Of a DNA stretch of 64,000 bases, positions 46,960 through 63,344 are shown one piece after another. The position numbers were made by a program, and so were the translations under genes. Within the stretch, counting starts at the first letter, position 1, and each line of letters opens with the position of its first letter. Where the stretch lies: NCBI GenBank assembly GCA_024103385.1, contig JAGFIT010000058.1, positions 1-64,000 of the forward strand, read 5' to 3'. The notes below the pieces were generated by a model. That model made no database searches and was not told where the DNA came from. It saw only the letters and a program-made list of their open reading frames with translations. The DNA comes from Vicingus serpentipes. Its GTDB lineage: Bacteria; Bacteroidota; Bacteroidia; Flavobacteriales_E; Vicingaceae.

Positions 46960-47481
46960 CTACATTTTTCCCTTAAAAGCGATTTCATTTACTGGTTTTC
47001 TTTCCTTAATACCTGTTTTCCCCTCATAATACCCTATAGCAATAGCAGTAACAGGTTCATACCCTTTTGGTATGTTTAATTTATCGATTGCATTTTGTGG
47101 AATAATTCCAGCCATTTGATGCAAATGAATTCCCATTGAAGATGCCTGGACACTTAAATTTCCAACAGCTAAACCTAAATCATGTTTAGCTACCCTATTC
47201 TCATTTTCATTTTTAGTGAAGTTTTTTCTCACAACAGTGATAACCAATGCAGCTGCTTTTGCTGTCCATCCTTTATTTCCTTCCACTAAACAATCATAAA
47301 TATTTTTAAATTCCTCTTGATCTTGTCTAAGTGCATACACAAATCTCCATGGCTGTTCGTTAAATGCTGAAGCAGCTTTTCCTGCAGCCTCAAACAATAA
47401 CTCTATTTGTTCCTGTGTTAATTCTTTATCTGTAAATTCATAAGGGCTAAAACGCTCTTTAATTAAGTTTAATATTTCCAT
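46960..47481 (-). CDS. Nitroreductase family protein
   Basis: This 173-residue FMN nitroreductase has KERFSPYEFTDKELT, SAFNEQPWRFVYAL and DLGLAVGNLSVQASSMGI in the same places as its paralogue at 34434-34991. It is the last of the four genes downstream of the MarR regulator, after a terminator hairpin that may lower its expression. Members reduce nitroaromatics or quinones, which suits a redox- or electrophile-responsive regulon. Confidence 0.9.
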   Translation of the reverse strand: MEILNLIKERFSPYEFTDKELTQEQIELLFEAAGKAASAFNEQPWRFVYALRQDQEEFKNIYDCLVEGNKGWTAKAAALVITVVRKNFTKNENENRVAKHDLGLAVGNLSVQASSMGIHLHQMAGIIPQNAIDKLNIPKGYEPVTAIAIGYYEGKTGIKERKPVNEIAFKGKM

Positions 47482-47498
47482 TTTTTGTTATTAATATT

Positions 47499-47532
47499 AA
47501 AAAGAAGAGAACACTTTTTTAAGTGTTCTCTT
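47499..47532 (-). terminator. Terminator after the YceI-like gene
   Basis: AAGAGAACACTT and AAGTGTTCTCTT (47505-47516 and 47521-47532) form a 12-bp perfect stem with a four-base loop. On the minus strand it is followed by a CTTTTT tract. Read-through would supply the nitroreductase gene. Confidence 0.8.
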
Positions 47533-47549
47533 AGCTAAATAGACTATAG

Positions 47550-48209
47550 TTATTTAGTTACTGTTAGGTTAATTGTAAATCCGATGTCATTAGCAATTAA
47601 ATAATCAACTGGAACTCCTTCCGTTCCTTCAACATTATACGTTAAACCCCATAATGTTCTATCTACAGAAAAATCTTCTGATTGAATGGTTAACTCATTC
47701 TCTGAGACCATTACATTTGCTTTAAAAGTAATGCTTTTTGTTGCTTCCTTAATAGTTAAATTACCCGTCACTTCACTGTTGTATTCACCTTCAACATCAT
47801 CAAGTTTTGTTAATTCAAACTTTGCTGTTGGATAAATATCTACACTAAAAAAGTCTGCACTCATTAAATGCCCTCTCAGTTTATTTGTAGTTTCTTTATC
47901 ATCTCCAAAGTTGTCAACTGTTAAAGAAGTTATATCAGCCACTACAGTTGCATTACTTAGTTGACTATTATTAACTAATAGTTCTGCACTTTTCACAGAT
48001 ACTTTACCATACCTTTTTTGAACTCCACCTAAATGAGAGGCTCTCCAATCTATATAGCTACCCTCTTTTACAGTTTTAAACGCTGTTGTGATAGCTGTTT
48101 TTTCAATTGTTACCGCTTCTGCATCTTTAACTGTTGCTTCATTTCCATTGTTTGAACAAGAAGCTATTATTACTCCTAATGTCAATACTACTAATGTCGT
48201 TTTCTTCAT
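47550..48209 (-). CDS. YceI-family lipoprotein
   Basis: The 219-residue protein has a lipoprotein signal (LVVLTLGVIIASC, lipobox cysteine near residue 18) and a YceI lipocalin-like barrel. IDWRASHLGGVQKRYGKV, FSVDIYPTAKFELTKL and VTGNLTIKEATKSITF are typical. YceI proteins bind isoprenoid quinone-like lipids in the envelope. It lies 12 bases after the pirin gene within the MarR-linked operon. Confidence 0.92.
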   Translation of the reverse strand: MKKTTLVVLTLGVIIASCSNNGNEATVKDAEAVTIEKTAITTAFKTVKEGSYIDWRASHLGGVQKRYGKVSVKSAELLVNNSQLSNATVVADITSLTVDNFGDDKETTNKLRGHLMSADFFSVDIYPTAKFELTKLDDVEGEYNSEVTGNLTIKEATKSITFKANVMVSENELTIQSEDFSVDRTLWGLTYNVEGTEGVPVDYLIANDIGFTINLTVTK

Positions 48210-48221
48210 TTTATATTTATT

Positions 48222-48977
48222 TTAATTATTTACTAATTCTAGATATGTTTTATAACTTAGTTGACGAGGCACTGAAACCATAAATAAACGCGCAGAGGAA
48301 CTCGTCTTAATTTCTATATGATTTTCCCCTTCAATAATAATAAAATCATCCTTTTTTACTTTATTTCCACCGAAAGAAGGTTCTCCTTCTATTATATAAT
48401 AAGAATATATCTTATCTTGATTTAAATTAATTTCATAGTTACCATCCTCCAATTTAAACTCACTAACAACAACCCCTTCAGATTCCATTTTGACTGGTCC
48501 TCCAGCTCCAACGTACCTTTTTCTTTTTAACCCCTCTTTTATAGGTTCGTATGGCATTTCAGCAGATTTATAATCATTGTAAGATGCTTCATGATTAATT
48601 GTTTGTTGAATATTAGGATCAAACCATATTTGAAACATTCTTCCTCCTGGTAATAATTTTTCTGCATGCGTAATTCCACTACCCGAGCGAATAATCTGAG
48701 CATCTCCCTTATACAAGGAAAGCCACCTATCAAACTTGCTGTCATAATGCTGTATTTCTCCATCAATAACAAACGACATAATTTCAAACATTTTATGAGG
48801 GTGTTCCCCTATTAATCCACCATTATCCGACCATGCATTAGCCCAGTAAAATAAATTAGAGTAAGGTTTTTGCATCCCTCCATCCTGAGGAAACCCAATG
48901 GGTTTGTTTTCTAAAATAGCGCCTCCAGCAAAAGCCCCTTTAGCCTGCTCTTCTTTTTTTATAATTTTAATCGACAT
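48222..48977 (-). CDS. Pirin family protein
   Basis: The 251-residue bicupin has GEHPHKMFEIMSFVIDGEIQHYDS, whose histidines and glutamate form the pirin iron site in the N-terminal cupin, then GSGITHAEKLLPGGRMFQIWF. The C-terminal cupin is plainer. Pirins act as quercetinases or redox-linked regulators in some bacteria. The gene heads a three-gene string with yceI-like and nitroreductase genes and carries a MarR-type palindrome about 24 bases before its start. Confidence 0.9.
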   Translation of the reverse strand: MSIKIIKKEEQAKGAFAGGAILENKPIGFPQDGGMQKPYSNLFYWANAWSDNGGLIGEHPHKMFEIMSFVIDGEIQHYDSKFDRWLSLYKGDAQIIRSGSGITHAEKLLPGGRMFQIWFDPNIQQTINHEASYNDYKSAEMPYEPIKEGLKRKRYVGAGGPVKMESEGVVVSEFKLEDGNYEINLNQDKIYSYYIIEGEPSFGGNKVKKDDFIIIEGENHIEIKTSSSARLFMVSVPRQLSYKTYLELVNN

Positions 48978-49000
48978 AAATTTATTTGTTTTTACATTTA

Positions 49001-49012
49001 ATGTATATACAT
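49001..49012. promoter_or_regulatory. Candidate MarR operator before the pirin gene
   Basis: ATGTATATACAT is a perfect 12-bp palindrome between the MarR stop and the pirin start. The same core occurs at 49519-49530 in front of the MarR gene itself. Confidence 0.65.
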
Positions 49013-49029
49013 ATATTTGAGCAAATTTT

Positions 49030-49479
49030 TTACGCTCTAATTTTTTCTAATATTTCATTCAATAATTTCGCTTCCTTTTCTGATATTTTTGATTTTAATA
49101 ATGTAAAGCTTGTCATTTCTTTATTTGCTTTTTCCAACAAACCCATCCCTTTTTTAGTAATTCTAACATCTACTTGCCTTCTATCATGTTCGCAAATTAC
49201 ACGCTCTATTAACTCTTTTTGTCTTAACTTTTCCACCAATCTACTCGCATTAGACATTTTATCTATCATCCTACTCATAATGTCGTTCACAGAAATAGCA
49301 TTATCGCCTTGTCCTTTTAAAATACGTAATACATTGTATTGTTGAGGACTTAAACCAAATGGTTTTAGTATTCTCGATGAATCCGACTCTAGCCAATTTC
49401 CTGTAAAAAGAATATTTAATATCGCTTTTTGATACTCTGATTTAAATTTGTCTTGTTTTAATTCTTCTTCTAACTTCAT
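49030..49479 (-). CDS. MarR-family transcriptional regulator
   Basis: The 149-residue protein has the winged helix of MarR proteins: LSPQQYNVLRILKGQ, then NDIMSRMIDKMSNASRLVEKL as the recognition helix and CEHDRRQVDVRITKKG as the wing. MarR repressors usually bind palindromes over their own promoter and a linked operon and release on ligand or oxidation. It lies upstream of pirin, YceI-like and nitroreductase genes on the same strand. No cysteine pair for redox sensing stands out; one cysteine precedes HDRRQ. Confidence 0.92.
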   Translation of the reverse strand: MKLEEELKQDKFKSEYQKAILNILFTGNWLESDSSRILKPFGLSPQQYNVLRILKGQGDNAISVNDIMSRMIDKMSNASRLVEKLRQKELIERVICEHDRRQVDVRITKKGMGLLEKANKEMTSFTLLKSKISEKEAKLLNEILEKIRA

Positions 49480-49496
49480 TTGTTGTAATTAAAACA

Positions 49497-49504
49497 CAAA
49501 TATA
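49497..49504 (-). promoter_or_regulatory. marR promoter, -7 element
   Basis: The minus strand reads TATATTTG, an exact TAnnTTTG match 18 bases before the marR start. The operator at 49514-49535 covers its -33 region. Confidence 0.55.
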
Positions 49505-49513
49505 TACAAAAAC

Positions 49514-49535
49514 ATTAAATGTATATACATTTAAT
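49514..49535. promoter_or_regulatory. Candidate MarR operator at the marR promoter
   Basis: A perfect 22-bp palindrome, ATTAAATGTAT followed by ATACATTTAAT, lies just upstream of the marR -7 element. Its core ATGTATATACAT is identical to the site before the pirin gene. Confidence 0.72.
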
Positions 49536-62273: not shown

Positions 62274-63344
62274 ATGATTAGTACAGAAATTAAAAGAGGT
62301 GTAGTAACAGGTAAAGCTGTTCAGGATATCTTTCAATTAGCCAAAGAAAAAAACTTTGCACTCCCTGCTGTTAATGTAACAGGATCTTCAACCATCAATG
62401 GAGTATTAGAAACTGCAAAAGAAATGAATGCTCCTGTTATTATTCAATTATCAAATGGAGGATGCGTATTTAATGCAGGCAAAGGACTAAACAATGAAAA
62501 CCAACAAGCTGCTATTGCAGGTGGAATTGCTGGAGCTTTACATGTACATACATTAGCAAAAGCGTACGGTGTTCCTGTTATTTTACATACTGACCACTGC
62601 GCAAAAAAACTATTGCCATGGATTGATGGATTATTAGAGGCAGGTGAAAAACATTTCAAAGAACATGGGGTTCCGCTCTATAGCTCCCATATGATTGATT
62701 TATCAGAAGAACCTATTGAAGAAAACATTGAGATTTGTAAGGCTTACTTAGAAAGAATGAGCAAAATAGGAATGACATTAGAAATTGAACTGGGTATTAC
62801 TGGTGGAGAAGAAGATGGGGTTGACAATTCTGATGTTGATAATGCACTACTCTATACCCAGCCTGAAGAAGTTGCTTTTGCTTATGAGGAGCTATTAAAA
62901 GTAAGTAATCAGTTTACGATTGCCGCATCATTTGGAAATGTACATGGAGTATACAAGCCTGGTAATGTTAAATTAACGCCTGTTATTCTTAAGAATTCTC
63001 AAGAATACATTCAAAACAAATTCAATACATCTAAAAATCCGGTAGATTTTGTTTTTCATGGTGGCTCAGGTTCTTCTATAGAAGAAATCAGAGAAGCTAT
63101 TTCTTATGGAGTAATTAAAATGAATATTGACACAGATATGCAATACGCATTTACTGCTGGAGTAAGAGATTATATAACTTCTAAGTTACCTTATTTACAA
63201 AGTCAAATTGGTAATCCTGATGGAGATGATAAACCAAATAAAAAATACTACGATCCTAGAGTGTGGTTGCGTGAAGGAGAATTAACTTTTAAAGCTCGAC
63301 TAAAACAAGCTTTTGAAGATCTAAACAATGTAAATACTTTATAA
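62274..63344 (+). CDS. fbaA: Class II fructose-bisphosphate aldolase
   Basis: The 356-residue zinc aldolase interconverts fructose-1,6-bisphosphate with DHAP and glyceraldehyde-3-phosphate. [19 protein letters not shown] contains the catalytic aspartate and a zinc histidine, [14 protein letters not shown] is the class IIA loop, and FHGGSGSS and [13 protein letters not shown] bind phosphate. Length and insertion fit the E. coli FbaA-type (IIA). The next gene, accD, starts 11 bases after its stop, an arrangement seen in other flavobacteria. Confidence 0.97.

Follow-up and report, generated by a model that had tools for sequence, protein, structure and literature searches.

A conserved candidate tandem operator upstream of marR, pirin, and yceI genes in Vicingus serpentipes and its relatives

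The window analyzed here is a 64,000-nucleotide stretch of the Vicingus serpentipes genome (Bacteroidota; Vicingaceae; GenBank assembly GCA_024103385.1, contig JAGFIT010000058.1, positions 1 to 64,000, forward strand). On its reverse strand it carries, in order of reading, marR, a pirin-family gene, yceI, and a small nitroreductase-family gene, with short palindromes before marR and before pirin (Table 1). The gap between marR and pirin is 52 bp, and the two genes, on the same strand, may also be cotranscribed. Pirin-nitroreductase adjacency is conserved in the close clade; yceI between these two genes was seen in the window's genome alone and in none of the relatives inspected. The functions of the pirin and YceI families are poorly known. 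The genome has another pirin gene (contig 66, L163), which lies downstream of genes resembling an oxidoreductase of the DsbA type and a DoxX-like protein; it had no copy of the site described below in the stretch read.

Table 1. Genes and sequence elements of the putative MarR regulon (window positions unless a contig is named)
Feature	Position	Strand	Evidence or remark
Small nitroreductase-family gene, last of the likely operon	46960..47481	-	PF00881
yceI, lipoprotein-type signal (IIASC)	47550..48209	-	PF04264 and translation
Pirin-family cupin	48222..48977	-	PF02678 (partial profile); HPH and HxE pirin metal-site motifs kept
Second dyad before pirin, ATGTAAAAACAA	48986..48997	-	15 bp from the perfect one; tandem pattern with 1/16 mismatch
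Perfect dyad ATGTATATACAT before pirin	49001..49012	.	Exact match
marR, 149-aa MarR-family putative repressor, lone Cys96 at wing start	49030..49479	-	PF12802, 2e-10
TATATTTG, predicted -7 box (TAnnTTTG) of marR	49497..49504	-	Its first base is the last one of the proximal dyad; register fixed across relatives
Second, degenerate dyad ATGTTTTTGTAT, marR promoter, proximal, about -23 to -12	49504..49515	-	Center 15 bp from the perfect dyad
22-bp palindrome, noted earlier	49514..49535	.	Outer arms vary among relatives
Perfect dyad ATGTATATACAT, marR promoter, distal, about -38 to -27	49519..49530	.	Kept in relatives
Second yceI, 199 aa	contig 47, L001:1548-2147		PF04264; third ATGTATATACAT copy 36 bp upstream

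The 12-bp palindrome ATGTATATACAT occurs twice in the window, and its copy before marR is the center of a perfect 22-bp palindrome, ATTAAATGTATATACATTTAAT. A sequence-only reading of the window had reported the two cores (49001 to 49012 and 49519 to 49530) and the longer palindrome (49514 to 49535), all at positions that proved exact, and had judged two identical cores unlikely by chance. The counts agree: no match appeared in 100 dinucleotide-shuffled versions of the window, versus the 2 observed, and the 3.1-Mb genome holds exactly 3 copies versus 0 of a control pattern (the same letters read backwards, likewise a palindrome; all genome-wide statistics are pattern searches with this built-in control). 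The same reading had suggested scanning the genome for further sites, and that scan yielded the third copy, before a second yceI gene. All three copies lie 24 to 40 bp upstream of their genes (marR, pirin-yceI-nitroreductase, and the second yceI). In relatives, the 12-bp core is kept and the arms of the 22-bp palindrome are not. With one mismatch allowed, the genome gave 16 sites (13 beyond the exact ones) versus 10 for the control, so that the excess was mostly gone, and 11 of the 12 one-mismatch sites whose surroundings were read fell inside open reading frames (ORFs). The exact sites therefore stand out, and the signal is carried by the exact 12-mer rather than by AT-richness. On the same counts, one-mismatch sites, including ATGTACATACAT (62542 to 62553, within an ORF), were rejected as targets, as was a relaxed 18-bp palindrome with 3 mismatches (11 matches; control, 10).

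The exact site was then searched for across the genus (14 genomes) and the family (31); the 41 distinct genomes contained 70 copies versus 8 of the reversed control. Sixty-four lay upstream of the few kinds of gene listed next, and the remaining 6 were elsewhere, mostly within ORFs. By downstream gene, 18 sites preceded marR, 13 the window-type pirin, 3 another pirin (PF02678 with a quercetinase C-terminal domain), and 27 yceI, with one site each before an Old Yellow Enzyme gene in a single relative (L117:1501; PF00724), a LigB-type ring-opening dioxygenase gene in a single relative (L074:331; PF02900), and an MFS-like gene (first 60 residues only, below the Pfam cutoff). The window's genome encodes no Old Yellow Enzyme gene. 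Two or three promoter-type sites were present in 15 of 15 genomes with a MarR ortholog of at least 55% identity, versus 4 of the 22 genomes with a weaker ortholog or none (Fisher p = 5e-7, which is indicative because the genomes are related). The same site stood at the marR and pirin promoters even of orthologs whose MarR sequences differ by as much as about 40%.

Farther afield, 48 distinct MarR orthologs from other genera and families and one Calditrichota MAG were sampled. Upstream of 36 of these, within 130 bp, was [A/T]TGT-N4-ACA[A/T] (or TGTA-NN-TACA); the strict TGTANNTACA form occurred in 0.5% of shuffled upstream regions, a figure that applies to the strict form and not to the looser one. 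Two dyads 15 bp apart, the arrangement described next, recurred in four distant orthologs (L027, L030, L061, and L067). In Chitinophaga, TTGTATATACAA was found before marR and again downstream, between marR and DoxX-YceI. Neighbors of distant orthologs included YceI (adjacent in several lineages), pirins, NADPH-dependent FMN reductase, NmrA, and DoxX.

The perfect dyad seldom stands alone. At 50 of the 64 promoter sites, a second dyad (scored as ATGT-N4-ACAT, 6 or more of the 8 positions matching, sites being aligned by gene direction) lay exactly 15 bp from the perfect one (+15 or -15), versus at most 6 of 64 sites at any other distance from 12 to 40 bp. Counted from where the perfect dyad begins, the flavobacterial sigma-A -7 element TAnnTTTG (PMC9723704) starts at position 11 in 23 sites and at position 26 in 19 sites. 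These two starts differ by exactly 15, so either dyad of a pair can be the perfect one, which is distal in some promoters (marR) and proximal in others (second yceI, where the operator reads ATGTACAAACAT-TAA-ATGTATATACAT-ATATTTG). The proximal dyad of the candidate operator thus ends on the first base of the predicted -7 box, and the distal dyad, 15 bp upstream, falls over the predicted -33 region. In a search of the whole genome for the tandem pattern with up to 2 mismatches, only the three sites were found in promoters (0, 1, and 2 mismatches), the best match being the second yceI site with 0; the remaining 2-mismatch matches were inside ORFs. At 3 mismatches, the pattern came near background (32 versus 19 for the control in the genome); a weak match at this level (3/16 mismatches) was located 40 bp upstream of the gene for a DoxX-like membrane protein (contig 3, L171:1501-1527).

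MarR passed two helix-turn-helix profiles of its family (PF12802, 41 bits versus a cutoff of 27; PF01047, 36.7 versus 24.6), and its AlphaFold model (pLDDT, 89) has a winged-helix MarR fold with helices at both ends. Compared with MarR structures, the model gave Z scores of about 15 to 16 over 130 to 148 residues, with HpaR, ST1710, PecS/HucR, and indole-acetate- or phenolate-binding MarRs as structural neighbors; the predicted fold matches those of phenolic-, urate-, and quinone-responsive MarR proteins. A palindrome at the regulator's own promoter is a MarR-family trait, and the perfect dyad 40 bp upstream of marR is a candidate operator of this kind. Residues N22, T26, Q47, N49, and R52 are invariant or nearly so among orthologs. 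The helices that hold them usually line the MarR pocket, and these residues may line a ligand pocket.

Taken together, these observations make it probable that MarR is an autorepressor that controls marR, pirin-yceI-nitroreductase, and the second yceI through a tandem operator until a quinone-like, phenolic, or electrophilic compound releases it. That one repressor serves marR and the pirin genes was the proposal of the sequence-only reading, and comparison now strongly supports it (shared sites; 15/15 versus 4/22 genomes). Its placement of the palindrome over the -33 region of marR also holds, with the core at about -38 to -27 if 49497 to 49504 is the -7 element; as a description of the regulatory unit, it had the perfect dyads right and missed both the second dyad at 15-bp spacing and the third target outside the window. 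The positions of the candidate sites, their 15-bp spacing, their register with the predicted -7 box, their conservation, and their exclusivity in the genome can be read from the DNA itself; we infer from them that MarR is the binding protein and that it represses rather than activates. It would bind the two ATGT-N4-ACAT dyads 15 bp apart, one dimer covering the -7 region from the proximal dyad and another covering the -33 region from the distal one. Given dyads over both regions, the natural reading is repression by occlusion, in which the bound dimers would block RNA polymerase at the sigma-A promoter, and the site at the marR promoter would imply autoregulation. A quinone-like, phenolic, or other electrophilic compound would then free MarR from DNA by occupying its ligand pocket, by modifying Cys96, or both, and the induced pirin, nitroreductase, and YceI would help to remove or tolerate the compound.

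The predicted circuit is well supported by comparative genomics, and we infer the inducer from gene content only. What supports a quinone or electrophile response is an association: among targets or neighbors of the regulator in relatives are Old Yellow Enzyme, a LigB-type dioxygenase, a quercetinase-type pirin, an FMN-dependent reductase, and NmrA. A broader proposal, to which we give slightly less than an even chance, is that this is a widely conserved Bacteroidota redox regulon in which a wing-cysteine MarR, acting at a 15-bp tandem operator, coinduces YceI with pirin and flavin reductases. If true, it would give the obscure YceI proteins, which are lipid/quinone carriers, a place in the defense against electrophiles or quinones.

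How MarR would be released has more than one answer. Cys96, the only cysteine of the protein, lies in the model just after strand 91-95, at the start of the wing, and it is possible, if somewhat doubtful, that release is a thiol switch in which this residue is modified by electrophiles or oxidants and the repressor leaves DNA. Its conservation fits such a switch: Cys is present in 15 of 15 orthologs with 55% identity or more and in 35 of the 48 overall, versus only 1 in a sample of 16 non-orthologous MarR proteins, 4 of them with a gap at this position. However, the other 13 of the 48 orthologs carry Asn, Ser, or Asp at position 96, and six of these keep the operator, Asn and Ser being among the residues that occur with it. 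Since the close clade always has Cys96 and orthologs elsewhere can have Asn or Ser, thiol sensing is possible and not required. The lone Cys95 of Staphylococcus aureus MhqR is, moreover, dispensable for quinone sensing (PMC6798810), the quinone binding in the pocket instead (PMC6798810, PMC12893000). A pocket ligand, perhaps with a contribution from Cys96, is no less likely than a thiol switch. A separate MarR clade (L033, L035, L036, and L037) has Asp at position 96, a different conserved palindrome upstream (AATCATTAATGATT), and a convergent neighbor gene of about 215 aa downstream; this palindrome may represent another operator specificity.

The same circuit could also answer to a phenolic acid, a catechol catabolite (a pocket ligand like those of HpaR, HosA, or UrtR), or another metabolite, and so serve aromatic metabolism or the maintenance of envelope lipids or quinone carriers. 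The structural neighbors listed above, the near-invariant residues in the usual pocket helices, and the persistence of the operator in Asn96 or Ser96 orthologs speak for this reading, as does the best NCBIfam model, HpaR, though far below its cutoff. However, no aromatic catabolic operon adjoins the orthologs inspected, and detoxification is a better fit to the reductases, pirin, and LigB, so that we hold this reading to be unlikely. The quinone-like or electrophile-responsive autorepressor remains our preferred account.

A further question is what the site in the marR-pirin gap would do. It could act as a roadblock or second control point inside a single marR-pirin-yceI-nitroreductase transcript, as would be allowed by the short same-strand gap and by the window's pirin promoter, where no clear TAnnTTTG box stands in the expected register. 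In one relative (G001), however, the pirin site is followed by TACTTTTG in promoter register, and the tandem geometry at pirin is the same as at other promoters; a roadblock is unlikely, and a repressed promoter before pirin, as in the autorepressor circuit, is preferred.

Finally, it is highly improbable that MarR is just a neighbor of palindromes that serve another regulator or form an AT-rich structural element: the pairing of MarR with the site is drawn from sequence, and AT-rich genomes can yield 12-bp AT-rich palindromes, but the sites are exclusively associated with marR and the same few families and co-occur with the ortholog, the control pattern is nearly absent, and the 15-bp pairing and -7 register are fixed.

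Bacteroidota are abundant, yet operators have been defined for few of their stress regulators. The site described here is sharply defined, with about three copies per genome and a testable geometry locked to the -7 box, and the gene set would link YceI and pirin, widespread families of obscure role, to one inducible response. An open-access search, which lacked most subscription journals and preprints, found no literature joining MarR, YceI, and pirin; within the open literature searched, neither the regulon nor its tandem operator appears to have been described.

In gene content, the putative regulon resembles, by analogy, the quinone regulons that MhqR and YodB/QsrR govern in Firmicutes (PMC6798810). 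MhqR of Bacillus subtilis and S. aureus shares the MarR fold and, with the circuit predicted here, a small autoregulated regulon and an inverted-repeat operator at the promoter; the S. aureus protein also has a lone, nonessential cysteine. Its regulon comprises oxidoreductases and ring-cleavage dioxygenases, whose possible counterparts here are the nitroreductase in the window and, in single relatives only, LigB and Old Yellow Enzyme. The MhqR operator is a single 9-9-bp repeat, TATCTCGAA-ATCGAAATA (PMC6798810), whereas here ATGTATATACAT is arrayed in a 15-bp tandem; with no TATCTCGAA-type inverted repeat, about 20% identity over the fold, and pirin and YceI genes in place of MhqD/MhqE, identity as MhqR was rejected on the operator. 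YodB, QsrR, and CatR respond to quinones and regulate genes for nitroreductases, quinone reductases, and dioxygenases, but they are DUF24/HxlR proteins that sense through an N-terminal cysteine (Cys5-7), whereas this protein is a MarR_2 member without an N-terminal cysteine; the Pfam scan gave no HxlR match and the only cysteine is residue 96, which set aside identity as YodB/QsrR (MarR/DUF24). In Burkholderia, a regulator with a yceI gene beside it answers to methylglyoxal (PMC4349456), a distant parallel. Proteins of the HpaR/HosA/UrtR type (HucR, PecS, and MftR), pocket binders of phenolics or urate that act at palindromes, are the best sequence and structural neighbors but have other target genes, and identity as HpaR was rejected at 44.3 bits versus an NCBIfam equivalog cutoff of 121.2. 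As a MarR autorepressor regulon, the system is of a well-known kind: real, conserved, and ordinary in kind.
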